The notes beneath the pieces are model-generated. The model was not told the DNA's origin, did no database searches, and saw only the letters and a list, made by a program, of their open reading frames with translations. Below are positions 4,530 through 24,723 of a stretch of DNA of 49,555 bases, piece after piece. A program made the position numbers and the translations under genes. Source of the stretch: Collimonas silvisoli (lineage in GTDB: Bacteria > Pseudomonadota > Gammaproteobacteria > Burkholderiales > Burkholderiaceae_D); contig NZ_JAGQEG010000038.1 of NCBI RefSeq assembly GCF_018305005.1, positions 1-49,555 of the forward strand. The letters run 5' to 3'. The first letter of the stretch is position 1; the number at the start of each line of letters is the position of its first letter.

Positions 4530-5309
4530 ATGAGCCAACTTTCAACCTACTTCCCCCTCAAGAACAAGGTCGCGCTGATCACCGGTGCGGCACGCGGCAT
4601 GGCGCTGCAGATCGCCTGCGCGCTTTCCGCCGCCGGTGCGCGGTTGGCGATTCTGGATGGGCTGGAAAGAGAAGGGCGCATCATCACCGGGTTGCTCAAC
4701 GACGGGCAAGCCAAAGCAAAATTCTGGCGACTCGATGTTAGCGACGGCAACGCGGTGCAGAGAGTGATCGCCGCTGTCGAGGCGCATTTCGGCCGCATCG
4801 ATATTCTGGTCAACAGCGCCGGCGTCGATGCCGACAATCCGTCCGCGCAGGGGCTGCCGCTAAGGCAATGGGAGAGGGCGATGCAGCTCAACGTCAAAGG
4901 CAGCATCCTGTGCAGCAAGCATGTGCTGGCCGCCATGGAGCGGGCCGGCGGCGGTTCCATCGTCAATGTGCTGTCGCTGTGCAATATGGATGATGAGCGC
5001 CAGGAGGCGGCCGATCATGTCGCCAAAACCGCACTGCGCATGGCCAACCTGAATGCCATGCGTTACGCCGCACGCAACGTTCGCGTCAATTCCATCCACC
5101 CTAGTCTGGTGCGCCCGCCGGCGCTGGCGGTAGCCATGCGTGAGCGCGGTGATCTGCCGCAGGTATTGAGCGACAGGGCCGAGCTGCAAATGTTGGGCCG
5201 CAGCGGTTCGGCCACCGATGTCGCGGCGGCGATCTTGTATCTGGTGTCGGACGCCAGCCGCTTTGTCAGCGGCAACGAGCTGGTGATTGATGCCGGGTAT
5301 GGCAGGTAG
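4530..5309 (+). CDS. Short-chain dehydrogenase/reductase-fold protein lacking the catalytic Tyr
   Basis: A 259-residue single-domain Rossmann protein. The cofactor loop reads ITGAARGMA (TGxxxGxG with the last Gly changed to Ala), NSAG and the adenine-site D (RLDVSD) are present, and the SDR Ser is kept in IVNVLSL. Where the family has YxxxK the sequence is DHVAK: the Lys remains but the Tyr is Asp. The C-terminus (FVSGNELVIDAGYGR) is normal, so the gene is full length. The start ATG 4530 follows AAAAGGAAAAC. It may be a degenerate dehydrogenase, an NAD(P)-binding non-enzyme, or an enzyme with altered chemistry. Its 3' end is duplicated elsewhere (14099-14279). Confidence 0.85.
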   Translation: MSQLSTYFPLKNKVALITGAARGMALQIACALSAAGARLAILDGLEREGRIITGLLNDGQAKAKFWRLDVSDGNAVQRVIAAVEAHFGRIDILVNSAGVDADNPSAQGLPLRQWERAMQLNVKGSILCSKHVLAAMERAGGGSIVNVLSLCNMDDERQEAADHVAKTALRMANLNAMRYAARNVRVNSIHPSLVRPPALAVAMRERGDLPQVLSDRAELQMLGRSGSATDVAAAILYLVSDASRFVSGNELVIDAGYGR

Positions 5310-5333
5310 CCGCCGTATGTTGACTGCGCTGAA

Positions 5334-5813
5334 TTACAGCGATTTATGGAATAGAACGCGATGTTGTCCTTCGCCGGCATAATTAAGAGCCACCGGGATG
5401 CCATCGATTTCACCGGATCCGGGAAGAAGCCTAAATCCCAGTTTGCGATGAAATGCGATAGAACCGGTATTGACCACAGATGTGATGCTGCGCACCTCTG
5501 TGCAGCCCTGGGCGCTGACCACCTTGAAGAAATGTTCGTAGAGCATGCGGGCGAAGCCGCTGGCACGTACAGCAGGACTTACGCCCACGAAGTGGATGTA
5601 TGCGACTTTGGGATCAGACTGCGATACAAAGCCGATCAGAAATGCTTGGACAGCGTCCGATGGGCCTATGGCGAAACTGGTTGCGTTTAAATGTTCGAAA
5701 AATATGCGATGAACTAATGCTCGAACAGGACGACCGCCCCACCAGTCATCGACTGCAGAAGAGACGAACTCGTAATCCAAAGATTCAAGGGTGCGGATAA
5801 TGTGTGCAGTCAT
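5334..5813 (-). CDS. GNAT-family N-acetyltransferase
   Basis: A 159-residue single-domain protein. AYIHFVGVSPAVRASGFARML matches GNAT motif A (beta4, then the acetyl-CoA pyrophosphate loop R-A-S-G-F-A, a variant of Q/RxxGxG/A), and ITSVVNTGSIAFHRKLGFRL matches motif B (N..SI.FH.K.GF). The substrate cannot be inferred. It is convergent with the SDR gene, 24 bp apart. A truncated, frameshifted copy of its 3' half lies at 6018-6253. Confidence 0.8.
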   Translation of the reverse strand: MTAHIIRTLESLDYEFVSSAVDDWWGGRPVRALVHRIFFEHLNATSFAIGPSDAVQAFLIGFVSQSDPKVAYIHFVGVSPAVRASGFARMLYEHFFKVVSAQGCTEVRSITSVVNTGSIAFHRKLGFRLLPGSGEIDGIPVALNYAGEGQHRVLFHKSL

Positions 5814-6017: not shown

Positions 6018-6253
6018 GTATGGCAGGTAGCCGCAGTATATTGGCTGCGCTGAACTACAGCGATTTATGGGACAGGGCGCGATGTTGTCCTTCGCCAGCA
6101 GAGTTAAGAGCCACAGGGATGCCATCGATTTCACCGGACCGGGAAGCAGCGTAGATCCTAGCTTGCGATGAAATGCGATAGAACCGGTATTGACGACAGG
6201 TGCGATGCTTCGCACCTTTGTACAGCCCTGGGCACTGACCACGCTGAAGAAAT
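6018..6253 (-). pseudogene. Degenerate duplicate of the SDR-GNAT junction (GNAT 3' fragment)
   Basis: About 236 bp closely repeats 5297-5533: it starts at the same GTATGGCAGGTAGCCG sequence that spans the SDR stop codon and runs through the 3' half of the GNAT gene. Read on the minus strand it gives VSAQGCTKVRSIAPVVNTGS and FHRKLG, then loses frame because one base is missing in the CCGGATCC/CCGGACC stretch. The start of the gene is absent; the copy abuts the 3' end of the RND permease gene. Region 5814-6017 shows nothing else. Confidence 0.75.
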
Positions 6254-14098: not shown

Positions 14099-14279
14099 TG
14101 GTGCGGCTAGCCATGCGTGAGCGCAGTGATCTGCCCCGGATATTGAGCGACAGGGCCGAGCTGCAATGTTGGGCAGCAGTGGTTAGGTCACCGATGTCGC
14201 GGCGATCTTGTATCTGGTATCGGACGCCAGCCGCTTTGTCAGCGGCAATGAGCTGGTGATTGATGCGGGATATGGCAGG
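14099..14279 (+). pseudogene. 3' fragment of the SDR gene (second copy)
   Basis: About 180 bp closely repeats the 3' end of the SDR gene (5119-5306), including GCCATGCGTGAGCGC and GGTGATTGATGC, with small deletions that destroy the frame. It ends at TATGGCAGG, the same sequence at which the GNAT-side duplicate (6018) begins. Immediately behind it lies one copy of an 18-bp direct repeat and the stress cassette. Confidence 0.75.
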
Positions 14280-14292
14280 CATCATGTCAGCT
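14275..14292. repeat. 18-bp direct repeat, left copy
   Basis: GCAGGCATCATGTCAGCT occurs here and again at 19050-19067 in the same orientation, enclosing the hfq-grpE-dnaK-hsp20 cassette. It overlaps the end of the SDR fragment by a few bases. Confidence 0.8.
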
Positions 14293-14383
14293 AAGCTCCA
14301 TACCTTGGCTCTAGAGAACGAGAACGTTGCTGAAATTTCCTACTGGGGTACACTAGTAGTCTCCATAAATATCGAGAACTGCC

Positions 14384-14626
14384 GTGAACAACAAGGGACA
14401 AATGTTACAAGACCTATTTCTAAATACTTTGCGCAAGGAGCGCGTTCCAGTGTCGATGTTTCTGGTCAACGGCATCAAGCTGCAAGGCCATATCGAATCG
14501 TTCGACCAGTATGTCGTCATGCTTCGCAGCACAAATATCCAGTTGGTATACAAGCATGCGATCTCAACGGTGGTTCCTTCCCGCGACATCAAGTGGGCTG
14601 ATGACGTAGAAAAAAATAACCTTTAA
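14384..14626 (+). CDS. hfq: Hfq paralogue (Sm-like RNA chaperone)
   Basis: An 80-residue protein with the full Hfq core: [20 protein letters not shown], Sm1 ([21 protein letters not shown]) and Sm2 ([12 protein letters not shown]) with the proximal-face YKH. Hfq forms a hexamer that pairs sRNAs with mRNAs. The GTG at 14384 is chosen because the N-terminus then aligns with the usual MSNKGQ. The Sm1-Sm2 linker is unusual (RSTNIQ) and the tail is short and acidic ([15 protein letters not shown]). It is not in the usual der-hfq-hflX setting, so it is likely a second hfq. It leads a stress cassette with grpE 115 bp downstream. TTGCTG (14327) and TACACT (14349) with a 16-bp spacer could be its promoter (weak). 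Confidence 0.93.
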
Positions 14627-14741
14627 CCTTTGGTAGGAATTGCTTGCGGCTGATCTGCTGCTGATCTTGATTGCCGGTATTTGCCTTACGCGCAACCGTT
14701 CTCGTTCCTGACAACACCTGGGGGACAAAGGAGAATGTTCC

Positions 14742-15383
14742 ATGCAAAATCAGGAAAATCGTCAAGAGAAAAAACAAGAGGGCGCATCCGAAGCTCTTGA
14801 TCGCGAATCAACAACGCCACCGTTGCAAGCGGGCGCCTCAGAAAACCAACCGCCAGCGCCGGATAAAGAGGCGCCTGTCTCTGAGCCTGTCTCAACGCCG
14901 GCTGAACCCGGTGTTGAGGAGAAGCTTGCCATGTCAGAGGCAAAACTCGCCGAGTTGCAGAATGACTATCTGCGCGCCAGAGCCGAATTGGAAAATGTGC
15001 GCCGCCGCGTGCAGGAAGAGATTGCGCGCGCCCACAAATATGCCATTGAAGGTTTCGCCAAAAGCTTGACGCCCGTCAAGGACAGCCTGGAAACCGCGCT
15101 AAAGATAGAAACGCCATCCGTTGAATCCTTGATGGAAGGCGTCGAGATCACATTGAAGCAACTCAATTCAGCCTTTGAACAAAACAAATTGACGGAAATT
15201 AATCCTATGCCCGGCGAGACGCTCGACCCAGCCAAGCATGAGGCGATTTCAATGATCCCAGCCGATCAGAATGCCAATACTATCGTCACTGTGCTGCAAA
15301 AGGGATACATGATTTCCGACCGGCTATTGCGTCCTGCATTGGTGACGGTGGCGAAAGAAAAACCAAGCAGCGGCAAGGCTTGA
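14742..15383 (+). CDS. grpE: GrpE, nucleotide exchange factor of DnaK
   Basis: A 213-residue protein. The first ~65 residues are Glu/Pro/Gln-rich and disordered; then comes the long coiled-coil (AKLAELQNDYLRARAELENVRRRVQEEI), the four-helix part (YAIEGFAKSLTPVKDSLETAL) and the beta-wing domain (NPMPGETLDPAKHEAISMI...TIVTVLQKGYMISDRLLRPALVTVAK), all characteristic of GrpE. It releases ADP from DnaK. AAAGGAG lies 9 bases before the ATG. It is followed by dnaK after 106 bp, but no dnaJ or hrcA is present, so this looks like an extra grpE-dnaK set rather than the core heat-shock locus. Confidence 0.95.
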   Translation: MQNQENRQEKKQEGASEALDRESTTPPLQAGASENQPPAPDKEAPVSEPVSTPAEPGVEEKLAMSEAKLAELQNDYLRARAELENVRRRVQEEIARAHKYAIEGFAKSLTPVKDSLETALKIETPSVESLMEGVEITLKQLNSAFEQNKLTEINPMPGETLDPAKHEAISMIPADQNANTIVTVLQKGYMISDRLLRPALVTVAKEKPSSGKA

Positions 15384-15406
15384 AAAGCGGTCGCCAGTTA
15401 ATATAT
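15379..15406 (+). promoter_or_regulatory. Possible sigma32-type promoter for dnaK
   Basis: CTTGAAA at 15379-15385 (overlapping the grpE stop) matches the heat-shock -35 consensus, followed after 13 bases by TAATATAT, which keeps only the ATAT part of the -10. The same layout with a better -10 precedes hsp20. Weak on its own. Confidence 0.35.
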
Positions 15407-15489
15407 TTGACTTAAGCACGTTGATTTAACCCCGTTGATTCAAGCCCGCCAAATTTTCGGTGCCGGAATGATTCGCGAAGGAGTTGGCT

Positions 15490-17415
15490 ATGAGCAAGAT
15501 GATTGGTATCGATCTCGGCACCACGAATTCCTGCGTTGCGATTATGGAAAGTGGCCAATCCAAGGTTTTGGAGAATTCGGAAGGAGCGCGCACCACTCCC
15601 TCCATAGTCGGTTATCAGGATGACGGCGAGATTCTGGTCGGCGCGCCGGCCAAGAGGCAAGCCATCACCAATCCAAAGAACACCCTGTATGCCGTCAAGC
15701 GGCTTATCGGTCGTAAGTTCGAAGAAAAGGAAGTGCAGAAGGACATTCATCTGATGCCGTATCAGATCATCAAGGCAGACAACGGCGATGCGTGGATTGA
15801 GGTGCGCGGCACAAAACTGGCGCCGCCGCAAATTTCCGCGGAAGTCTTGCGCAAGATGAAAAAAACGGCTGAAGACTACCTCGGCGCTGAGGTGACCGAG
15901 GCAGTGATCACGGTCCCGGCGTATTTCAATGACTCTCAGCGCCAGGCGACCAAGGATGCGGGACGTATCGCCGGCCTGGATGTGAAACGCATCATCAATG
16001 AGCCGACCGCGGCCGCGCTGGCGTTCGGCCTGGATAAATCCGGCAAGGCCGATCGCAAAATCGCCGTGTACGATCTGGGCGGCGGCACGTTCGATATTTC
16101 AATCATCGAAATTGCCGATGTCGAAGGCGAGAAGCAGTTCGAAGTATTGTCCACCAATGGCGACACCTTTCTCGGCGGCGAAGATTTCGATCAGCGCATC
16201 ATCGATTACATCATCGACGAGTTCAAGAAAATCAACGGTATCGATTTGAGCAAGGATGCGATTGCACTGCAGCGCATCAAGAGCGCGGCTGAACGCGCCA
16301 AGATCGAGCTGTCGTCGACCCAGCAAACGGAAATCAATGAGCCGTACATTGCCATGGCAAATGGCGCTCCGTTGCATATGAATTTGAAGATCACGCGCGC
16401 AAAGCTGGAATCGCTGGTGGAGGAGCTGATTCAAAAAACCATCGAGCCTTGCCGTATCGCGCTCAAGGATGCAGACGTCGATCTTAGCAAGATAGACGAC
16501 GTCATTCTGGTCGGCGGCATGACCCGCATGCCGAAAGTACAGGAGACGGTCAAGGAGATCTTCGGCCGCGAGCCGCGTAAAGACGTCAATCCAGATGAGG
16601 CCGTCGCCGTCGGCGCCGCGATCCAGGGATCGGTGCTATCCGGCGAACGCACCGATTTGCTGCTGATGGATGTGACCCCGCTGTCGCTAGGCATCGAAAC
16701 GCTGGGCGGCGTGATGAGCAAGATGATTCAAAAGAACACTACGATTCCGACCAAATTCAGCCAAGTGTTTTCCACTGCCGACGACAACCAGCCGGCGGTA
16801 ACGATCAAGATATATCAGGGGGAGCGCGAGATAGTGGCCGGCAACAAGCTGCTGGGCGAATTCAATCTTGAAGGCATTCCGCCGTCACCGCGCGGCATGC
16901 CGCAGATAGAAGTGACCTTCGACATCGACGCCAACGGCATTTTGCATGTAAGCGCGAAGGACAAGGCCACCGGCAAGGAAAACAAGATCACCATCAAGGC
17001 AAACTCCGGTCTGACCGAAGCGGAGATCCAGAAGATGGTGCGCGACGCCGCCGCCCATGCGGACGAAGACATGCGCGTGAAAGCGCTGACCGAGAGCCGC
17101 AATCATGGCGATGCGCTAGTGCATGCTACGCGCAAGTCCTTGCTTGAATATGGCGACAAGCTGGAGGCCGGCGAAAAGACAGGCATCGAAACCGCCATCA
17201 AGGAACTGGAAGAGGCGTTGAAGGGTAATGACAAGTCGAGCATCGATGAGAAAATCGCCGCGCTTTCAAGTTCGGCGCAAAAACTCGGCGAGAAGATGTA
17301 CGCAAATAGTCAGTCGCAAGAAGCTGCCGGGGCTGGCAACGCGGCGTCGAGCGATGCGCATCAACGGCAAGACGATGACGTAGTGGACGCTGACTTTAAA
17401 GAAGTGAAGAAATAA
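15490..17415 (+). CDS. dnaK: DnaK (Hsp70 chaperone)
   Basis: A full-length 641-residue Hsp70. Visible signatures are [14 protein letters not shown] (phosphate 1), [16 protein letters not shown] (phosphate 2), [17 protein letters not shown] (adenosine/hinge), the substrate-binding domain start [20 protein letters not shown], and the C-terminus [14 protein letters not shown]. It refolds client proteins in an ATP cycle with J-protein and GrpE. The ATG 15490 follows GAAGGAG by 7 bases; a TTG two codons earlier is inside the spacing region. No co-chaperone dnaJ is adjacent, so it must borrow a J-protein or use a specialised one. Confidence 0.97.
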
Positions 17416-17500
17416 CACATCTCTACTTTTTGCAAGAAGCGCCAGCCAGAACGCGACGTGGAGCAAGCTGGCGGACAGATGTTCGTGGAGTATCGTTGCT

Positions 17501-17761
17501 GTGAGTACCAAAACACTTGCCGAGTTGCCGCGGAACGAACAGGATGATTTTGCAGCGGTGTGCGCTGAACATGGCTTGGAAACTGTTCAATTCCTCGTCT
17601 ATGTCGAAGAGTTATATCCAGTGGTAGGAGGCGGGTGTATTCAACGCCAGGCATATGTCGAGCGATCGTCGAACCAGGTGGCGCGAACATACCCGGCAGG
17701 TTTCGGAGCATCGTGGATCATAGCTTTCTCGGTGGATCTGGTCGAAGGTGAGTTTGACTGA
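17501..17761 (+). CDS. Small conserved-looking hypothetical protein of the stress cassette
   Basis: An 86-residue acidic protein beginning at GTG 17501 (MSTKTLAELPRNEQDDFAAV) with EELYPVVGGGCIQRQAYVER and a hydrophobic end (FGASWIIAFSVDLVEGEFD). I do not recognise a domain. The amino-acid texture is that of a folded cytoplasmic protein, with no signal or transmembrane segment. It lies 85 bp after dnaK on the same strand with no terminator between, so it is probably co-transcribed with it. Confidence 0.55.
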   Translation: MSTKTLAELPRNEQDDFAAVCAEHGLETVQFLVYVEELYPVVGGGCIQRQAYVERSSNQVARTYPAGFGASWIIAFSVDLVEGEFD

Positions 17762-17821
17762 CGTTCTACCTCATTCGCCTTGAGTGGCAAGATTGCTTTT
17801 GCATTCGTTGATCAAGACCTG

Positions 17822-17841
17822 AATTCCCTTGGGGAATTTTA
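17822..17841 (+). terminator. Weak hairpin after the dnaK-downstream gene
   Basis: AATTCCC, a 3-base loop and GGGAATT followed by TTAG. A 7-bp stem with a very short U run; at best a weak terminator or a 3' processing signal separating dnaK transcription from the downstream small gene. Confidence 0.3.
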
Positions 17842-18009
17842 GCCATTGCTGCCTTGTCAAAGCGGGTATTGAAAAAATGCGAAGTTTGCCTTAATCTTTT
17901 TACTCCCATCGCAACCGGCGGTGATTTCTACGCAGAATACGGGTTTTCCCGTGTTCGATGCAGATATGAAAATTGATGGTTTTACTACACATTTTTCAGG
18001 AGTGAAGAA

Positions 18010-18297
18010 ATGCAAATTTCCTTTCTTAACGCGGTAACCTACGATCCAAATTCAGACAACGTTATTGTTCCAATTGTCGTCGATGACAAGCTTGCCAGAT
18101 GCAATGTCACCAAGGAATGCCTGGATAAAAAATTTCATGCAGGCCCCCAGCCGGAAGATCGTCTCGCTACTTACAGGGGGCACCGGATTGAGATTCAACG
18201 GGCGCTTATCCGTAAGCTGAAAACCACAGGATTTCGTAGCGATGTAGCACTATCGGCTAACGATTTCAATGAAAAGACCGAGCTGATTAATAATTGA
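18010..18297 (+). CDS. DUF1488-like small protein
   Basis: A 95-residue cytoplasmic protein: MQISFLNAVTYDPNSDNVIVPIVVDDKLARCNVTKECLDKKF...YRGHRIEIQRALIRKLK. The 'F.....YD...D.V.....VD.....C.V..E.L...F' and the basic C-terminal helix fit small DUF1488-type proteins, which have no known biochemical role. CAGGAG precedes the ATG by 8 bases. It sits between dnaK and hsp20 in the stress cassette; such small DUFs often travel with heat-shock genes, but a chaperone function is not shown. Confidence 0.6.
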   Translation: MQISFLNAVTYDPNSDNVIVPIVVDDKLARCNVTKECLDKKFHAGPQPEDRLATYRGHRIEIQRALIRKLKTTGFRSDVALSANDFNEKTELINN

Positions 18298-18368
18298 AAT
18301 TGTCGTAAAGCATGTCTTGGAATGTGGCTTTTCACTCTCAAGATAAGCGCATTTTTCTGTCCCTCAAT

Positions 18369-18397
18369 CTTGAAATTCCATATTAAATTTCTTATAT
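18369..18397 (+). promoter_or_regulatory. Sigma32-type heat-shock promoter of hsp20
   Basis: CTTGAAA at 18369-18375 is a perfect match to the heat-shock -35 element; after 14 bases comes TCTTATAT (18390-18397), which keeps 5 of 8 positions of CCCCATNT, including the ATAT. Predicted transcription start is near 18404, directly before a GC-rich hairpin. Confidence 0.55.
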
Positions 18398-18407
18398 ATT
18401 GAGTACC

Positions 18408-18453
18408 GGGAGCGCCGCTCCCTTATCGACGAGAGAAATGAAAGGAGGGCACA
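18408..18453 (+). promoter_or_regulatory. Structured 5' leader of hsp20, possible RNA thermometer
   Basis: GGGAGC-GCC-GCTCCC (18408-18422) is a perfect 6-bp hairpin at the mRNA's 5' end. The CTCCCTT in its right arm (18418-18424) can alternatively pair, with one bulged base, with the AAGGAG of the Shine-Dalgarno sequence at 18441-18449. This gives a choice between a free and a masked ribosome site, as in heat-sensing leaders of small heat-shock genes. Inferred from base pairing only. Confidence 0.35.
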
Positions 18454-18933
18454 CTGAATATCGTCAGGCGTGATAGCTCACCTCTTTCGAGATACCGTTC
18501 TGGATCGCTGGACGACCAGTTCGGACGGCTGATTGAAAATATGTTTGAAGACTTCTTAACGCCGCTCATGCCATATTCTTCTTTTTCAAGGCAAGGCGAA
18601 GATGGGCTTGTCAGTCCACGACTGAACGTAGTTGAAACTGAAAAAACGTTTGAAGTGGAGGCGGAGTTGCCGGGAGTCTCAAAAGAAGATGTCAAGGTAA
18701 CCGTCGACGATCGACGGGTGTTGATTGAGGCCGAGTCAAAGCATGAATCGACAAAAAAAGAAGGGAAAAATATTATCTATGCTGAGCGCACCACCAGTAA
18801 ATTCGCGCGCAGTTTTACACTGCCGGTTCCAGTCAATGACGTCAATGCGCAAGCGAAACTTGAAAATGGCATCCTGACGCTAACCCTGCCGAAAACAGAA
18901 ACAACACACGCTAGGCGATTAACGGTTCGGTAA
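18454..18933 (+). CDS. Small heat-shock protein, Hsp20/alpha-crystallin family (CTG start)
   Basis: The frame before the first ATG (18541) reads MNIVRRDSSPLSRYRSGSLD if CTG 18454 is used as start; this is the standard opening of bacterial class A Hsp20 proteins, and CTG is preceded by an ideal AAAGGAGGG four bases away. An ATG start would have no ribosome site and would delete 29 residues. The 159-residue protein has the alpha-crystallin domain (PRLNVVETEKTFEVEAELPG...LENGILTLTLPK), which includes the conserved A-x-L-x-N-G-I-L near the C-terminus. It is an ATP-independent holdase that passes unfolded clients to DnaK, which is encoded in the same cassette. Transcription is probably heat-shock controlled, and a strong terminator follows. 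Confidence 0.9.
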   Translation: MNIVRRDSSPLSRYRSGSLDDQFGRLIENMFEDFLTPLMPYSSFSRQGEDGLVSPRLNVVETEKTFEVEAELPGVSKEDVKVTVDDRRVLIEAESKHESTKKEGKNIIYAERTTSKFARSFTLPVPVNDVNAQAKLENGILTLTLPKTETTHARRLTVR

Positions 18934-18950
18934 ACCGCGTTTCAGAAAAG

Positions 18951-18981
18951 GCCGTACGGGGAAGGAGCGTACGGCTTTTTT
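18951..18981 (+). terminator. Rho-independent terminator of the stress cassette
   Basis: GCCGTACG, a 9-base loop and CGTACGGC followed by six T. Perfect 8-bp stem 17 bp after the hsp20 stop. Confidence 0.9.
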
Positions 18982-19049
18982 GGGGTTCTTCACGGATTGC
19001 CAGCCGCCATAAAATTTGACGCTGCAGCACTGTTGAGTGCTGAGCTAAT

Positions 19050-19067
19050 GCAGGCATCATGTCAGCT
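19050..19067. repeat. 18-bp direct repeat, right copy
   Basis: Exact copy of the sequence at 14275-14292 in the same orientation, 69 bp after the hsp20 terminator. The two copies frame a 4.8-kb segment holding only stress genes. Confidence 0.8.
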
Positions 19068-19093
19068 GAAATCGCAAAGGCGTCGACGAAAAA

Positions 19094-19687
19094 TTATTTC
19101 TCCTGAACCGGGGATGCAGCAGGCAGCGTCGGCGTGGAAATCAGATTATTCAATCCTGCCCGCTCTACGGCGGAAATCATTGCTTGATAGCCTTCCGTGC
19201 TATCACGGTACAGCAGCACGACAGAAAAACCTTGCTCCGCCGGATCGTCGGACGCCAGCACTTCCGCCTCGCCGCCCGCGGCGCGGAGCCGTGAAACGAT
19301 TACCTGCGCGCGCTGTTCGAAAGCAAATACCGCCCCGACATATCGACGCTTTGCGGTCTCCGATCTGGCGGCGCTAACCTGATATGCATTGCCGTCGCCG
19401 GGCACCAGGAGCAGACCGCGTTCCTGCAGCGATTTCTGGAAAAGCGTGAAAACTTCATCAGGTGAAAGTGGATCGGTTGAAGCAAGACTAATTGTTCCCT
19501 GTACTTCCTGAGCCAGGCGAATCTTCTTCCCCGAATATTGGCTGACCAGGCGTACCGCATCAGGCAATCCAATATCTCGCCAAATGACATAAAACCGGTC
19601 ATCGCAAAAGACTGCCGTTGCATGTGACAACAATAGAAACGCTAATAGATATGTCGCGATCTTTTTGAATATTGATATCTGAAACAT
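19094..19687 (-). CDS. Exported protein with secretin N-domain-like region
   Basis: About 197 residues. MFQISIFKKIATYLLAFLLLSHATAVFC is a signal peptide. The mature part reads RFYVIWRDIGLPDAVRLVSQYSGKKIRLAQEVQGTISLASTDPLSPDEVFTLFQKSLQERGLLLVPGDGNAYQV, which follows the N0 domain pattern of GspD/secretin proteins (I.....I..GK.......V.G..........L......L...GL....G). A second domain (RRYVGAVFAFEQRAQVIVSRLRAAGGEAEV) resembles the N1 (KH-like) domain. The secretin pore domain is missing, so it cannot be a channel. ATG 19687 is preferred over TTG 19699, although the AGGAG is unusually close. No secretion genes adjoin it. Confidence 0.6.
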   Translation of the reverse strand: MFQISIFKKIATYLLAFLLLSHATAVFCDDRFYVIWRDIGLPDAVRLVSQYSGKKIRLAQEVQGTISLASTDPLSPDEVFTLFQKSLQERGLLLVPGDGNAYQVSAARSETAKRRYVGAVFAFEQRAQVIVSRLRAAGGEAEVLASDDPAEQGFSVVLLYRDSTEGYQAMISAVERAGLNNLISTPTLPAASPVQEK

Positions 19688-19798
19688 ATCTCCTGACAAT
19701 TATCGTGGCATTGCCGCAGATACTTTCTACGGGCAGATTGCCGGTAAAGGGCGGACTGCCGACATGTGCTGGCGCGATGCATGTCGACAGTCAGAACG

Positions 19799-22168
19799 TC
19801 ACATCAACGCGGCGATCTGTGCTGCGCTCAAAGCTCCTCGATAAATGCGGAATTCATCTATCAAGCCGTCGAAGTACGGATCACTGGCGTACTGTGACCT
19901 CCCGATCCAGTTCTGGCTGGTACTGCCCAGGTGGAACGGTGCAAGCACCATCGCGGTATTGGCGCCAACTGCGCTGCCGTTCACGTACAAGGTCCCGACA
20001 TTGCCCGACAGGGTGATAGCGACATGCGCCCATTGCCCGATCGGCATTGCGGTATTGCTGTCGATCCCTTGCTCGCCGCTACTGCCATTGACCGTCATGG
20101 CAAAGCGTGGAAATCCACTGTTATTGCGTGTCGCTAACATCATGTAGTGGCCGGTGCCGGTGCCGAAATCAAACACCCGCGCCCATTTTTGCGATGCATT
20201 CCAATAGACCCAGGCCGCGATCGTGATATCCGAAACATCGGCCACAATGTCGGCCGGCAGACTGACGTAACCGTTGCTGCCGTTAAGTGACACTGCACTG
20301 CCTTTTTTGCCTATTCCCCAAGTCGCTCCGTTGGTCAGCGTTCCGGTGTGACCCTTACCGCTGGAATCGGCGGCCGTAGTGCCGCTGCCGTCATCGAACG
20401 CCAGATAGGTCTGCAATTGCACAGCCGTAATCGCAGTCGCCTCGTTCGATGCTGAAGTGAGTCCGGATGGCGTTACAGCGGTGACGACATAGTAATAGGT
20501 GCCGGCGGCCAGGCCACTGTCGGTATAGGTCAGCAGATCGGTGATGCCAGTCGCGACGGTTGTATAAGGTCCACCGGCAGTCGTGCCGCGCTTGACGTCG
20601 TAACTGCTTGCATACGCGCTGCCCCACCACGACAGGATCACTTGCCCCGGATTCGCGATCGCGGTCAGGCCGCTTGGCGCCGCGCCGCTTGCAATCGGGT
20701 CGCGCGTGCAGGTTAGCGTGCCATAGCCCAATTGATCGTAGCCGCCGCTGTTAGGTCCATAGTTGCCGCCGCCGCCTTCCGGCTGGATCAGCGCTGCGAA
20801 TTTCCGGGAATACGGCGCGGCCAATCCTTTACGGTTGACGTAATGGTTATAAACCAAAGCCCACGCCGGCCGCACGGTGCCTTGTGCAATCGTCGACAAG
20901 GCGGTTTGATTGACTCTGTCGATATTGTTGTAAGTGACATAAGGTACTGTATAAAACGTATTGCCTGATTCAATCAGATTGGCTTTGGCGACGTATTCGG
21001 CGCCGGCAAGAAAACGGTTATTGTCATAGCCATACAGGTCTACTCCCTGATTCCATGCCATTTCGCAAATCGGTCCCATCAATGCGATGCCGAGCGTGTT
21101 GTGTCCCTGGTCGCGGCCGGTTTCTTGCCACTGCCCCAGATAACCTGGATGCATGTAGTAGACGGCTTGCGAAACGGCGCCGTTGCCGGCCCCGTGCTTG
21201 AAGTAATCGACGGCTTCGTTAAACATGGCACGGTCATCGCATAACACGCCGATAGCCATGATCGAGGCCATATTGCACAAGTCCCAATTAGCCCAGTAGT
21301 GGGTAACTTCGGTATTGTTGTGACGGATCAGGAAATCATGATTGATCGGGTAAAAGACTGTCCGCATCATGTTCTGAAAACTGGCAAGATCGGCAGCAGC
21401 CCAACCGCTATAAGAGCGCATGATTTCGGCCGCATTGGCGAACTGGTAGCCCTGGAGGCCGGCGACCAGATCGCCATTCGTATCGCCGCCTATTCCTGTC
21501 AGCGTCGACGACCAGGCGTTCAAGATAGTCACGGCCTTATCGGCATAGGCGGTGTCACCCGAAATTTTCCACCGCAGTGCGCAGGCATAGGCGGCGGCGA
21601 TGTCCTTATACAGAATAGAGTAGTTCTGCGCATGTACGTGATCGTTCCCGCGATAAATCATCGTTTGCGGACGAGGCCTGTAACCCAAGCTGGCGTGGCT
21701 GTTAGTGATCAGGACGTTCCAGCCGTTGATCCACGGCGACGCTTTCGCCTTCACCTTTTGGCTCATCCGGTCAAAATCGGCCTGGGTATGCAGCAGGCCT
21801 GGATGAATAAATGCATTGCTGACAGGAGCTGGCGTCGCTTCCGGTGTAGCCGGCGCTGCTTCTGGTGGCGCAGGTGTAGCCGGCGTCTGGTTGGAAGTGG
21901 CAGGGAGGTTATGCGCTGCCGTTACGGACGTCATTGCTGGCATCGGCACGACAGCCGTGGCAGACGAGCCGCCGCTGCTGGTTATGAGTGTACCGCCCCC
22001 GTCGCCACAGCCCGCCAGCAACAAGGCGCCAAGGCTGGAAATGAAATGACGGCGCGACATGCCGTTGGCGTGCTGTTCGCCACTGGATGCATCGCTTGTA
22101 TCGACAAGTGTCTGCGACGATTTGTGATTGGCATCGATCACCGGATTATTCACGCTCTTGTCTTTCAA
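19799..22168 (-). CDS. Tat-exported alginate lyase-family lipoprotein with FN3 and LamG modules
   Basis: Up to 789 residues. MSRRHFISSLGALLLAGCG (from residue 37) is a twin-arginine signal with lipobox, so ATG 22060 is an alternative start. A Pro/Ala/Thr linker is followed by the catalytic domain (about 115-480): AFIHPGLLHTQADFDRMSQKV, ISGDTAYADKAVTILNAW, NTEVTHYWANWDLCNM and QETGRDQGHNTLG, the phrasing of the PL5-like alginate lyase superfamily; His and Asn in NWDLCN/HYWANW and RDQGHN are the likely active-site residues. Then a fibronectin III domain (SGLTAIANPGQVILSWWGS...) and a C-terminal laminin-G-like sugar-binding module (AYLAFDDGSGTTAADSSGKGHTG-type start). It would cleave uronic-acid polysaccharide outside the cell. 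It is divergent from a GH28 gene, with a shared operator-like palindrome. Confidence 0.8.
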   Translation of the reverse strand: MKDKSVNNPVIDANHKSSQTLVDTSDASSGEQHANGMSRRHFISSLGALLLAGCGDGGGTLITSSGGSSATAVVPMPAMTSVTAAHNLPATSNQTPATPAPPEAAPATPEATPAPVSNAFIHPGLLHTQADFDRMSQKVKAKASPWINGWNVLITNSHASLGYRPRPQTMIYRGNDHVHAQNYSILYKDIAAAYACALRWKISGDTAYADKAVTILNAWSSTLTGIGGDTNGDLVAGLQGYQFANAAEIMRSYSGWAAADLASFQNMMRTVFYPINHDFLIRHNNTEVTHYWANWDLCNMASIMAIGVLCDDRAMFNEAVDYFKHGAGNGAVSQAVYYMHPGYLGQWQETGRDQGHNTLGIALMGPICEMAWNQGVDLYGYDNNRFLAGAEYVAKANLIESGNTFYTVPYVTYNNIDRVNQTALSTIAQGTVRPAWALVYNHYVNRKGLAAPYSRKFAALIQPEGGGGNYGPNSGGYDQLGYGTLTCTRDPIASGAAPSGLTAIANPGQVILSWWGSAYASSYDVKRGTTAGGPYTTVATGITDLLTYTDSGLAAGTYYYVVTAVTPSGLTSASNEATAITAVQLQTYLAFDDGSGTTAADSSGKGHTGTLTNGATWGIGKKGSAVSLNGSNGYVSLPADIVADVSDITIAAWVYWNASQKWARVFDFGTGTGHYMMLATRNNSGFPRFAMTVNGSSGEQGIDSNTAMPIGQWAHVAITLSGNVGTLYVNGSAVGANTAMVLAPFHLGSTSQNWIGRSQYASDPYFDGLIDEFRIYRGALSAAQIAALM

Positions 22169-22706
22169 CGATATTGTTTTGGAAATGACAGGGGGAGATT
22201 GAATGTCGTCTGGCCGCGATGTACGCCCGTTGATGTTTCACATGCAGTTTGCTGCCACGTTCAGACGGCTGAACAGGCATGATCAACTCGATGTTCAACG
22301 CCGATTCCGGCGGCGTCGAAACAAATTTTCGGCACGGTATTCAATCCGGGAGTTTCATCGCAAATATTGTGCCAATAGCGAATAAGCGGTTGCCGTCCTC
22401 AATTTGTGTTAGCGCTAACAAAATTTGTCAGTTTTTTTGCTTTTCGGTTAAGTTTTTTCCACGGCTAGGCGTTACAACTGCGGATCGCTTTTTCGGAGTG
22501 TTCTTCTGGATTCGTTCGGTTGCGCGTTCAACATCCGATGTGGCATGGATCGTGCCTGTGATGTCGCTCGAACATGACTGCACGCGCATCTGGTCAGTAT
22601 CGTCTCTGCACCTTCACTGTTCGAAATCCCTGCTGAAGAAATAATTTTTCCCTTTTTATAAGGCGGAAAAGATTGTTCTTGCGGATACCTTTATCTTTTG
22701 GAAAAT
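22169..22706. other. Divergent intergenic region, lyase / GH28
   Basis: 538 bp with no convincing gene. It holds the LacI-type palindrome at 22407-22420. The AT-rich right third (22620-22700) probably carries the GH28 promoter, but no clear -35/-10 pair stands out. Confidence 0.5.
22407..22420. promoter_or_regulatory. LacI/GalR-type operator palindrome
   Basis: TGTTAGCGCTAACA is a perfect 14-bp palindrome with the central CG and TGTTA..TAACA arms typical of LacI/GalR-family operators; the A/T-rich flanks (AATTTG / AAATTT) partly extend the symmetry. It lies between two divergent polysaccharide-degrading genes and so probably controls both. No LacI-family gene is in the window. Confidence 0.6.
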
Positions 22707-24593
22707 ATGACGTCTTTTTTGAAAAAGCATTCTTTTATAACTACCTTTATCTGTCTGATTCTCTGCGCTTGCGGGGGCGGTGCAAGCGATGCCGGAACCG
22801 GTTCCGGCGCCAGCGGTACGGGTAGCGTAGGAAACGTAGTCAGCAACTCAACTAGCACAGGCTCAACTAGCACAGGCTCAACTAGCACAGGCTCAACTAG
22901 CACAGGTTCAACTAACACAGGTTCAACTAACACAGGTTCAACTAGCACAGGCTCAACTAGCACAGGTTCAACTAACACAGGTTCAACTAACACAGGTTCA
23001 ACTAGCACAGGTTCAACTAGCACAGGTTCAACTAGCACAGGTTCAACTAGCACAGGCTCAACCGGCACAGGCATCACCTCAACCAATGTGGATGCTGCGC
23101 TTCCCGCTGAGCCGCAGCTGCCTAAAACGGTATGCGCTGCATTGACAGCTAATCTGCAGCAGACGGCTGGATTGCTGCCTGCCTCGATTGACGCCAGTCT
23201 GGCCAATTCAAATCCGGATACTGTGCGGATTCAAGCAGCAATCTCCAGTTGCCCTGCAGGGCAAGCGGTGACGCTGACTACCGGAAGCAGCGGCCAGAAT
23301 GCCTTCCTTTCAGGTCCGATAACTTTGACCAGTGGCGTTACTCTCTGGATTGATCAGGGCGTGACTCTATTCGCGTCGCGTAGTCCTGTAGATTTCGACA
23401 CAGGCGCCGGCAATTGCGGCACCGCTGCAGGTGACGGCAAGTCCTGCAATGCCCTGATCACCGCCAGCAAGACGCAAAACAGCGGAGTGGTAGGCGACGG
23501 TATTATCGACGGCCGTGGCGGCAGTGTCTTAACGTCTGGCGCCAACGCTGGAATAATGACTTGGTGGGACGTTGCCATGCTGAATAAATCGACGGGAAAG
23601 AGTCAGAATAATCCTCGTATGATCCAGATTTTCGGCGGCAGCAACTTCACGCTGTATCGTATTACCGTCCAGAATGCACCGGCATTCCATGTGGTGCCTA
23701 ATACCGTCAGCGGTTTTACGGCTTGGGGGGTAAAAATTCTGACGCCGACCCTGGCTTACTCCAAGCCGGGTTATGCCTGCCCGGCAGGAAGCAGCCCGGA
23801 TCCGACCACGCCAGCTACCTCGCCAAGCACTTGCTTTACGCCGGAAACCACAAAAAATACGGATGGAATCGATCCTGGCCAATCGAATAATGTGTTGATC
23901 GCTTATTCCTATTTCAGCGGCGGCGATGACAATATTGCGATCAAGGCGAGTGGATCGGCGGCGGCGCTCTCGCATCGGATTGTCCACAGTCATTTCTATT
24001 ATGGCCATGGCATGTCGATCGGCAGCGAGACGAATTCGGGCGTCGATGGCATCGAGATGCGGGATCTGTCGATCGATGGCCAGGACTCTCAAAACGGCGT
24101 GGGCATACGGATCAAGTCGGATGATGGTCGCGGTGGCGAGGTAAAGAACATCAGCTATCAGCAGATCTGCATGCGTAACGTCAAGGAGCCGATGATATTC
24201 GATCCTTACTACAGCCCTGGAAATCACACTTCGGCGCCGAATTTTCACGACATTACGGTCAGCGGCTTTCATTATTTGGGCAGCGCAAAATATGGCGGCG
24301 GCACGCTCACCTTCAATGGTTATGCTTACAACGGCACGCTCAATCCGTTGAAGATTACTTTGGATAACGTCATATTCGATTCTGCGCCGAAGATATCGAA
24401 CGCCAGTCACAACGGTGGCCCGACGCCGCCGTCGAACACGCAGTTCATCATGGGGCCGGGGCCGGTCAACTTCACGGTCGCATCTTCAGCGGCGAATAAC
24501 GTGACGATAACCGAGCTGCCGAAAAACAGTCAGTCAGCGCTTGATTGCAGCCAGGCCTTCGTCTCGTTTCCATCTTCTGCATCTCCCTTTTAG
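22707..24593 (+). CDS. GH28-family polygalacturonase-like lipoprotein
   Basis: About 628 residues. MTSFLKKHSFITTFICLILCACGGG is a lipoprotein signal. A 75-residue GSTST-repeat linker (about 48-122) separates it from a right-handed beta-helix with all GH28 signatures in order: NTDG (384), GDD (406), GHG (433) and RIK (468), i.e. the catalytic Asp triad, the conserved His and the substrate-binding Arg/Lys. GH28 enzymes hydrolyse homogalacturonan or rhamnogalacturonan. The ATG 22707 is preferred to TTG 22698. Cell-surface attachment by lipid and a flexible spacer fits attack on bulky pectin. A short perfect hairpin with T run follows. Confidence 0.88.
   Translation: MTSFLKKHSFITTFICLILCACGGGASDAGTGSGASGTGSVGNVVSNSTSTGSTSTGSTSTGSTSTGSTNTGSTNTGSTSTGSTSTGSTNTGSTNTGSTSTGSTSTGSTSTGSTSTGSTGTGITSTNVDAALPAEPQLPKTVCAALTANLQQTAGLLPASIDASLANSNPDTVRIQAAISSCPAGQAVTLTTGSSGQNAFLSGPITLTSGVTLWIDQGVTLFASRSPVDFDTGAGNCGTAAGDGKSCNALITASKTQNSGVVGDGIIDGRGGSVLTSGANAGIMTWWDVAMLNKSTGKSQNNPRMIQIFGGSNFTLYRITVQNAPAFHVVPNTVSGFTAWGVKILTPTLAYSKPGYACPAGSSPDPTTPATSPSTCFTPETTKNTDGIDPGQSNNVLIAYSYFSGGDDNIAIKASGSAAALSHRIVHSHFYYGHGMSIGSETNSGVDGIEMRDLSIDGQDSQNGVGIRIKSDDGRGGEVKNISYQQICMRNVKEPMIFDPYYSPGNHTSAPNFHDITVSGFHYLGSAKYGGGTLTFNGYAYNGTLNPLKITLDNVIFDSAPKISNASHNGGPTPPSNTQFIMGPGPVNFTVASSAANNVTITELPKNSQSALDCSQAFVSFPSSASPF
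22848..23072 (+). repeat. 15-bp tandem repeat (GSTST/GSTNT linker)
   Basis: Fifteen contiguous 15-bp units of the type TCAACTAGCACAGGC, with variation at three bases (C/T in GGC/GGT, AGC/AAC, and one CCGGC unit). Being a multiple of three, unit gain or loss changes linker length without changing frame. Encodes STSTG, STNTG and one STGTG. Confidence 0.95.
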
Positions 24594-24723
24594 CGGTTGC
24601 CGGCATATGTATCGGGTGACATGGAGAAGAAAATATCCCGTCTGCATATGTGGCGGCAGATGGGAAATTCCATGTCGTTCGACATGCAACGGCGCCGTTG
24701 GCGTCCCGGCGTCTTTGACGTGC

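Follow-up and report, generated by a model that had tools for sequence, protein, structure and literature searches.

A putative foreign chaperone cassette with an accessory Hfq, bounded by 18-bp direct repeats, in Collimonas silvisoli

Described transmissible stress islands (tLST/TLPQC) centre on the ClpG disaggregase, and their core unit is given as dna-hsp20-clpG in excerpts of two reports (PMC8290217; PMC7685784). Transcription of clpG-GI is described in one of these excerpts as independent of sigma-32 (PMC7685784). In an excerpt on Burkholderia cenocepacia, the lxa locus (BCAM0275-0323) appears as a cluster of 50 genes, six of them encoding universal stress proteins, in which BCAM0277 (DUF1488) adjoins BCAM0278 (alpha-crystallin heat-shock protein), and both rise over chronic infection time (PMC6127331). 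The same species reportedly has a second Hfq, hfq2 (PMC3474761 and others). Further chaperone islands occur on Burkholderiaceae plasmids of B. anthina, P. phenoliruptrix (pSYMBR3459) and C. necator.

We analysed a window of 49,555 nucleotides of the C. silvisoli genome (contig NZ_JAGQEG010000038.1). Between two exact copies of an 18-mer, the genes hfq2, grpE2, dnaK2, orf86, a DUF1488 gene and hsp20 follow each other in one direction up to a terminator and occupy the available space. We saw no dnaJ, transposase or integrase gene in this interval. The features of the region are:

14103 to 14279, + strand: 3'-terminal remnant (broken copy) of an SDR gene; the intact SDR matches it at 91% in its 3' end (5127-5306 of the window)
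14275 to 14292, + strand: left 18-mer copy, of which the first 5 bases are also the end of the SDR remnant
14336 to 14383, + strand: upstream region of hfq2, common to accessory hfq genes of other genera (upstream DNA alignment)
14384 to 14626, + strand: hfq2, accessory Hfq of 80 aa with a GTG start (PF17209, E 9e-30), 76% identical to core Hfq over residues 1-71
14742 to 15383, + strand: grpE2, 213 aa (PF01025), 66% identical to core GrpE over 160 aa
15490 to 17415, + strand: dnaK2, 641 aa (PF00012), 84% identical to core DnaK, without dnaJ downstream; examined by tree and AU tests
17501 to 17761, + strand: orf86, small conserved protein of 86 aa, no Pfam family
18010 to 18297, + strand: DUF1488 protein of 95 aa (PF07369, E 5e-15), with a 66% identical relative in genome G028
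18369 to 18397, + strand: weak sigma-32-like promoter match 5' of hsp20, 11 of 14 letters
18454 to 18933, + strand: hsp20 (PF00011), start probably CTG at 18454, first ATG at 18541
18945 to 18981, + strand: intrinsic terminator 3' of hsp20, 14-pair stem and T run (z -2.29)
19050 to 19067, + strand: right copy of the 18-mer; homology to genome G061 starts at 19052, 2 bases inside the copy
19094 to 19699, - strand: GspD N0-domain-like gene (PF21305), 94% identical in G061, part of the conserved right-hand flank

As far as the excerpts describe the tLST/TLPQC islands, the cassette resembles them in combining apparent xenologues of core genes (hfq, grpE, dnaK) with a small heat-shock protein, and its grpE2-dnaK2 pair likewise has no good sigma-32-like match, comparable to clpG-GI. 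Unlike these islands, it has no ORF as large as ClpG, dnaK2 being the largest in 14275-19067; grpE-dnaK and hfq are found instead, with hsp20 present, and the ORFs scanned include no flanking mobile element. Our best reading is that the cassette works like the tLST/TLPQC islands yet is not a member of them.

Related accessory grpE-dnaK islands are found in six other genomes of the family (G002, G055, G066, G103, G151 and G224), and we found no published description of them. Nine of the 12 second copies read across the family have grpE-dnaK without an adjacent dnaJ. HdeD-like (DUF308) and DUF5335 genes adjoin the pair in six of the 12 loci, and some islands also have thioredoxin, a further resemblance to tLST/TLPQC. 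Because of these neighbours, the likeness to transmissible protein-quality-control islands with other genes, drawn in an earlier sequence-only reading of this DNA, proved apt. The islands share with the window a grpE-dnaK pair without adjacent dnaJ (the island of G002 is cut by a contig end), mostly the absence of a sigma-32-like promoter, several DnaK residues and, in three cases, a nearby hsp20 of the same N-terminal type. In contrast, their HdeD-like, DUF5335, PRC, 79-aa, reductase or thioredoxin genes are absent from the window, which adds hfq2, orf86 and DUF1488. The stretches read in G066 and G103 also contain a CbpA-like J-protein relative. The cassette and these islands point to a second design of stress island, with an accessory Hsp70-GrpE that has neither an adjacent DnaJ nor a sigma-32 promoter. 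An accessory Hfq beside such a pair would let a single package act on RNA as well as protein.

The cassette shares a DUF1488-hsp20 neighbour pair with the lxa locus, and differs from it in that none of the six cassette ORFs has a universal stress protein domain; the lxa excerpt names no dnaK. The plasmid islands are similar in having an accessory DnaK (77-78%, B. anthina and C. necator) with small heat-shock proteins, and on C. necator pBB1 a relative of orf86 adjoins hsp20. They differ in their groESL-dnaK and sigma-factor-like gene, and grpE2, hfq2 and DUF1488 had no match in the plasmid stretches fetched. The hfq2 of B. cenocepacia, likewise the second hfq of a betaproteobacterium, has in the part of the report consulted only its name in common with the Hfq2 described here. 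Neither the combination of hfq with grpE-dnaK nor the full gene set was present in any other locus read. A plasmid-borne set was rejected, as searches with the DNA, hfq2, grpE2, DUF1488 and orf86 gave no joint match among the plasmid matches listed (15 of 147, 25 of 88, 25 of 77, 0, and 6 of 6, respectively), and a phage-borne set was rejected as viral contigs yielded one distant hfq. An anti-phage system was likewise discarded (no PADLOC match at E ≤ 0.01 for the six cassette proteins).

The exact 18-mer repeat on which the sequence-only reading was built is confirmed. When the window was dinucleotide-shuffled 100 times, matches with at most three mismatches averaged 0.05, and no shuffle contained two. 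The whole genome has ten places at this tolerance, comprising the two exact copies in the window, two with two mismatches and six with three (reversed-pattern controls: 1 + 1 matches); six of the eight near-matches were inspected, and their surroundings are unlike those in the window. Window shuffles and genome scan together rule out a chance or widespread 18-mer, and the exact repeat stands at both ends of the cassette and nowhere else in the genome, as in a target-site duplication. The second hfq and the extra grpE-dnaK without dnaJ were also correctly recognized, with core hfq and grpE-dnaK-dnaJ loci present elsewhere in the genome. Because the 18-mer is not widespread and these core loci exist, both objections foreseen at the outset, a common 18-mer and a sole hfq and dnaK of the chromosome, fall away. 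The broken SDR copy is real as well, and its match to the intact gene stops at GCAGG, the opening bases of the first 18-mer. The statement that nothing but stress genes lies between the repeats holds for the chaperone genes, but orf86 and DUF1488 are not established stress genes.

The nearest relative, G061, aligns to positions 19052-24613 of the window at 90%, after which homology ends. Its comparison with the window gives a sharp right edge and, on the left, no homology beyond a 24-base patch. No clean empty site was found in G061, where other DNA adjoins the 18-mer-like bases and the match to the SDR is only 21/24. A joined-flank model of the empty site scored 377 versus 383 for the unjoined alternative, and 127 of 300 shuffles were equally good. 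The left neighbour, a PLD gene, has relatives in seven of 14 other genomes of the genus, but their match stops before the SDR remnant and thus provides no left flank for an empty-site comparison. The domain scan found no recombinase among the cassette ORFs and no transposase or integrase in nine ORFs between 12.1 and 22.2 kb. No tRNA was found in the window, and an inverted match of the cassette ends scored 13 against a shuffle mean of 14. Movement as one unit is conjectural: the gene set recurs in no other locus read, neither a clean empty site nor a recombinase was found, and the closest relatives are scattered. The earlier observation stands, and its interpretation as a whole is partly supported.

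Among 15 genomes of the genus, the present one (G000) alone has two grpE genes, and it alone has two hfq genes among the eight searched (none in the seven others). The first grpE search scored at most ten candidates per genome, by which a second grpE could escape notice; a repeat search of 21 genomes that scored every candidate left the counts unchanged. A position of DnaK2 within the DnaK clade of the genus was rejected (lnL 40.8 lower, p-AU 0.0108). Grouping with five island DnaKs was not rejected (AU p 0.35), grouping with seven accessory DnaKs gave an AU p of 0.105, and the tree settles no sister for DnaK2. DnaK2 has seven residues that are absent from all core rows and present in at least three of the five island rows, versus zero to two in 33 core rows. 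GrpE2 has one island residue, which is no excess (core rows 0-1, one outlier 3), and no supported placement in the GrpE tree. Eight rows with a stop codon in the aligned stretch were dropped from the GrpE tree and one short row from the DnaK tree. By the AU test, DnaK2 is not a copy of the genus's own DnaK; foreign origin was tested for DnaK2 alone among the putative xenologues, GrpE2 being uninformative. At residues 151, 167, 170, 171 and 173 and in most of its linker, DnaK2 is identical to core DnaK. These positions presumably include DnaJ contacts; some later numbering checkpoints were misaligned.

A sigma-32-like promoter precedes all 11 core grpE genes (scores of 11-14 of 14). In contrast, grpE2 scores 8 of 14, which 97 of 100 shuffles equalled, and no good sigma-32-like match was found upstream of grpE2 or dnaK2. 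Ten accessory grpE genes score 9-11, nine of them lacking such a promoter and one being borderline; the split is imperfect, as core grpE of G062 and accessory grpE of G162 both score 11. Since grpE2-dnaK2 have no good sigma-32-like match, they are probably outside the usual heat-shock feedback. The heat-shock promoter proposed for hsp20 is weak: CTTGAAA is perfect, but the -10 is poor, and five of 200 shuffles were as good.

On balance, and with only slightly better than even confidence, we favour a foreign protein-homeostasis cassette that would provide extra chaperone capacity outside sigma-32 control. Duplication of the core hfq and grpE-dnaK within the genome would account for the high identity of DnaK2 to core DnaK, but we consider it extremely improbable, because the AU test (p 0.011) rejects it for dnaK, GrpE2 is 66% identical to its core counterpart, and Hfq2 resembles the accessory Hfqs of other genera. 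With these it shares, unlike core hfq, the GTG start and upstream DNA: blastn gives 83% to G016 over 14336-14596, and TACTG..GTACACT lies upstream in both (no grpE or dnaK occurs in the G016 stretch read). An old heritage of the genus, lost in the sampled relatives, with the 18-mer a coincidence, is improbable too. The absence of a second grpE from the 14 other genomes, the lack of an hsp20 match at E ≤ 1e-10 in 12 of 15 and the position of DnaK2 outside the genus clade all argue against it, even though G028, of the same genus, has an orf86 relative as well as a DUF1488 relative whose upstream DNA is also shared.

A less likely but more serious alternative is an accretion hot spot, in which hfq2, grpE2-dnaK2, orf86, DUF1488 and hsp20 came separately beside a decayed SDR, the 18-mer being an unrelated local duplication. 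The closest relatives of the cassette genes indeed lie in different genomes and contexts (hfq2 in G016, DUF1488 in G028, hsp20 in G100, a paralogue of orf86 at another site of this genome), and GC3 is uneven along the cassette, from 46% to 70%. Separate arrivals fit less well with six co-directional, terminator-ended genes that fill the space between exact 18-mers without an equally close third copy, and with grpE, dnaK and an hsp20 of the window's type lying together in three related islands. In the favoured reading of a foreign cassette, seemingly a compact acquired stress package whose general type is known but whose gene mix is unusual, we infer entry as one unit beside the gspD-N0-like gene, by which 18 bases of host flank would have been duplicated at the ends. 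The GC3 of DUF1488 and hsp20, 46-47% versus 52-71% in eight non-cassette genes of the window, favours this reading. The cassette would supply an Hsp70 motor (DnaK2), its exchange factor (GrpE2), a holdase (Hsp20), two small accessory proteins and a second Hfq. Hsp20 would hold unfolding proteins, DnaK2-GrpE2 would refold them with host DnaJ, and Hfq2 would probably act at the RNA level in the same stress. A more specific version is doubtful: a transferable unit bounded by the 18 bp, in which an accessory Hfq, with a conserved promoter region of its own, accompanies a sigma-32-independent DnaK-GrpE borrowing host DnaJ and a holdase, and Hfq2 might tune the stress output, for example by sparing the host heat-shock circuit.

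Relatives of both small genes have been reported or seen beside hsp20 elsewhere. The orf86 profile found relatives in 10 of 300 genomes of the order, this genome included. Compared by sequence with solved structures, orf86 and DUF1488 gave weak matches alone (E 0.14 or worse), and the single-sequence fold of orf86 had a mean pLDDT of 47, too poor for a structure search. In G028 the DUF1488 gene stands alone. Its leader folds well in the window (z -4.1 for 126 bases, z -2.0 for 101 bases) but poorly in G028 (z 0.30 and 1.42), and we therefore claim no conserved switch. Rfam gave no match in the region up to E 2, and an RNA thermometer upstream of hsp20 was rejected (z 0.36 and -0.26). Searched with the window query at E ≤ 1e-10, this genome yielded no Hsp20 other than that of the cassette; the 63% identical relative of hsp20 in G100 has no other cassette genes in its 1.5-kb flanks. 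Hsp20 is probably longer than the first ATG implies, as 25 of 29 relatives have an ATG at the position of the in-frame CTG (18454-18456), which is preceded by AGGAGG.

An exact 18-mer occurs twice in the window, at 14275 and 19050, and brackets a gene set, just as the sequence-only reading had described. Between the two copies lie, all on the plus strand, hfq2, grpE2, dnaK2, an 86-aa ORF (orf86), a DUF1488 gene and hsp20. A terminator closes this six-gene cassette, and neither dnaJ nor a recombinase was found between the 18-mers. The impression that hfq and grpE-dnaK (without dnaJ) were extra copies was confirmed. The core hfq resides on contig C180 of the same genome (76% identity to the hfq2 product) and the core grpE-dnaK-dnaJ on contig C166 (DnaK 84% and GrpE 66% over 160 aa versus the cassette copies). 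In the 5.66-Mb genome (241 contigs), every further place resembling the 18-mer has at least two mismatches; 10 genomic places match with at most three mismatches, versus 2 for reversed-pattern controls. Hence, the 18-mer is not widespread and the cassette does not contain the only hfq and dnaK of the chromosome, the two possibilities that the sequence-only reading had raised against itself.

The hfq gene was present in 143 of the 145 family genomes surveyed, with two or more copies in 16, and grpE in 290 of 294, with two or more copies in at least 19. The genome of the window was the only one with two or more hfq genes among the 8 genus genomes of the hfq survey, and the only one with two or more grpE genes among the 15 genus genomes of the grpE survey. 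The latter scored at most 10 first-look candidates per genome; a recount of all candidates in 21 genomes gave identical counts. No other cassette gene was found in the flanks (up to 8 kb on each side) of 80 named hfq loci (E 1e-3). Extra hfq genes occurred in 15 other genomes, and in the five whose second loci were inspected (G016, G030, G084, G097 and G118) neither grpE nor a close dnaK relative was found; the G097 locus merely had distant Hsp70-like genes close by. The complete six-gene set was absent from every other locus inspected. The locus is real and so far genome-specific, and the combination of hfq with Hsp70 in one cassette is unusual.

The DnaK tree (47 rows) placed the genus copies in a single clade (100/99), with DnaK2 outside. 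Forcing DnaK2 into this clade was rejected (p 0.0108), while grouping it with five island DnaKs (p 0.35) or with seven accessory DnaKs (p 0.105) was not. DnaK2 has 48 residues not seen in 33 core rows, of which seven recur in at least three of the five island rows; the same count was 0-2 for core rows and 3-8 for the remaining rows from accessory copies and plasmids. Such sharing could equally stem from convergence at sites under relaxed constraint. GrpE2 gave no signal in the same kind of test, with one such residue versus 0-1 in core rows and one outlier of 3.

The other genes have different relatives. In its residues and its GTG start (ATG in core hfq), Hfq2 resembles the accessory Hfqs of G016, G030, G084 and G118, and the DNA upstream of hfq2 is alike in the window, G016, G030 and G084. 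The DUF1488 gene and its upstream bases share 71% DNA identity with a lone gene in G028, a genome of the same genus, and for hsp20 a gene with 63% identity occurs in G100, its 1.5-kb flanks free of other cassette genes. Of all the evidence, this patchwork speaks most strongly against entry as a single unit. Loci L111, L112, L114 and L115, together with window 14336-14626, represent a putative accessory Hfq lineage with a GTG start at differing loci in several genera.

The right flank was closest to genome G061 (90% over window 19052-24613). Because this alignment starts two bases within the right 18-mer, that copy belongs to the original flank; the left one is the apparent duplicate. The corresponding 18 bases in G061 differ at four positions. 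The left 18-mer overlaps the last bases of the SDR remnant, a broken 3' gene end at 14103-14279. On the opposite side of the 18-mer-like bases G061 has different DNA, with a 21/24 match to SDR (score 33 versus a best of 28 among 200 shuffles). A gap-tolerant joined-flank model for G061 was equalled by 127 of 300 shuffles and scored no better than the unjoined flank (377 versus 383). The PLD gene, the left neighbour, has relatives in 7 of the 14 other genus genomes, whose match stops near 13.95 kb. Neither G061 nor these PLD relatives yielded a clean empty site. SDR 3'-end relatives are plentiful in the genome (contigs C71, C73, C172 and others), with 14 left-flank matches including the query itself. 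Window 5297-5533 and 6018-6253 form a duplicated stretch (88-89% identical) that adjoins the intact SDR and an ORF classed by eye as acetyltransferase-like.

The sigma-32 consensus used was CTTGAAA-N11-16-CCCCATNT; the scan covered less true upstream DNA where a match began inside the protein. Core grpE promoters matched 11-14 of 14 letters in all 11 genomes, equalled by 0/100 shuffles in 10 genomes and 5/100 in G062. The grpE2 promoter matched only 8 of 14 (97/100 shuffles equally good), and ten accessory grpE promoters 9-11, the top score being that of G162 (4/100), where the accessory dnaK is preceded by another score of 11 (2/100). The two score ranges thus share one value, reached by a single core grpE (G062) and a single accessory grpE (G162). 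Upstream of core dnaK, 9 of the 11 genes scored at least 11 (at most 3/100 shuffles equally good) and two scored lower; dnaK2 scored 10 (8/100). Given these weak scores, grpE2-dnaK2 probably lies outside the sigma-32 regulon. Transcription of clpG-GI is described as sigma-32 independent in an excerpt of PMC7685784, and a sigma-32-free Hsp70 is a coherent theme. The hsp20 gene had been called heat-shock-promoted; a sigma-32 match does precede it, but a partial one (11 of 14).

The chaperone cassette was probably acquired. Acquisition is the best overall explanation, at slightly above even confidence; the lack of support from GrpE2 and the overlap in promoter scores both lower that confidence a little. 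In such a cassette Hsp20 would hold, DnaK2-GrpE2 with the host DnaJ would refold, and Hfq2 would act on RNA. The cassette is a putative variant among transmissible stress islands. It falls outside tLST, which is built round ClpG, since none of its ORFs reaches ClpG size. Plasmid islands of Burkholderiaceae (L105, L107 and L108) differ in having accessory groESL-dnaK with sHsp and a sigma-factor-like gene.

Twelve second-copy grpE loci (L153, L260-L270) were inspected; two G283 fragments were set aside, and the other weak second or third copies, in G115, G160, G162, G184, G193, G224 and G237 were left out. Nine had grpE-dnaK without adjacent dnaJ; the others had dnaJ (G087), were cut by a contig end (G002) or had grpE alone (G024). 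A CbpA-like J-protein relative (37-41%) occurred in three of the nine stretches (G066, G103 and G281), adjoining dnaK in G281. DUF5335 and an HdeD-like gene were common to six of the 12 (G002, G055, G066, G103, G151 and G224), of which five also had a PRC gene and three thioredoxin. Panel proteins for this comparison came from G151, whose island by Pfam includes pyridine-nucleotide reductase, thioredoxin, DUF5335, DUF308, PRC and HSP20. The islands of G103, G151 and G224 also contain an hsp20 with the N-terminal type seen in the window. Loci L153, L260, L262, L264, L265 and L266 form a recurrent family island with DUF5335, the HdeD-like gene and grpE-dnaK without adjacent dnaJ. Depending on the gene, most or some of these loci add PRC, reductase, thioredoxin, hsp20 and a 79-aa protein. 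No published account of this arrangement was found in open-licence PMC text.

The hsp20 query (E<=1e-10) had a single match in the genome of the window and none in 12 of the 15 genus genomes, so the cassette may supply a new function rather than a spare. At window 18454-18456, hsp20 has an in-frame CTG with a good ribosome-binding site upstream; in 25 of 29 relatives the codon here is ATG. Starting at CTG may reduce the yield of Hsp20, or translation may begin at ATG 18541 instead. In Burkholderia cenocepacia, BCAM0277-0278 (DUF1488 with an Hsp20 neighbour) rise together, according to part of PMC6127331. DUF1488 has a solved fold, 2gpi, as noted in a passage of PMC2954204; phmmer found no link between 2gpi and the cassette protein. 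The DUF1488 leader (17900-18025) is predicted to fold far beyond shuffles (z -4.1) with its ribosome-binding site paired, and the G028 leader had no comparable fold. The orf86 product belongs to a real family, whose members turned up in 10 of 300 genomes of the order, among them that of the window. Its relative on pBB1 adjoins hsp20, in a stretch that also contains a second hsp20-like ORF and cbpA-like and cbpM-like ORFs, named by eye.
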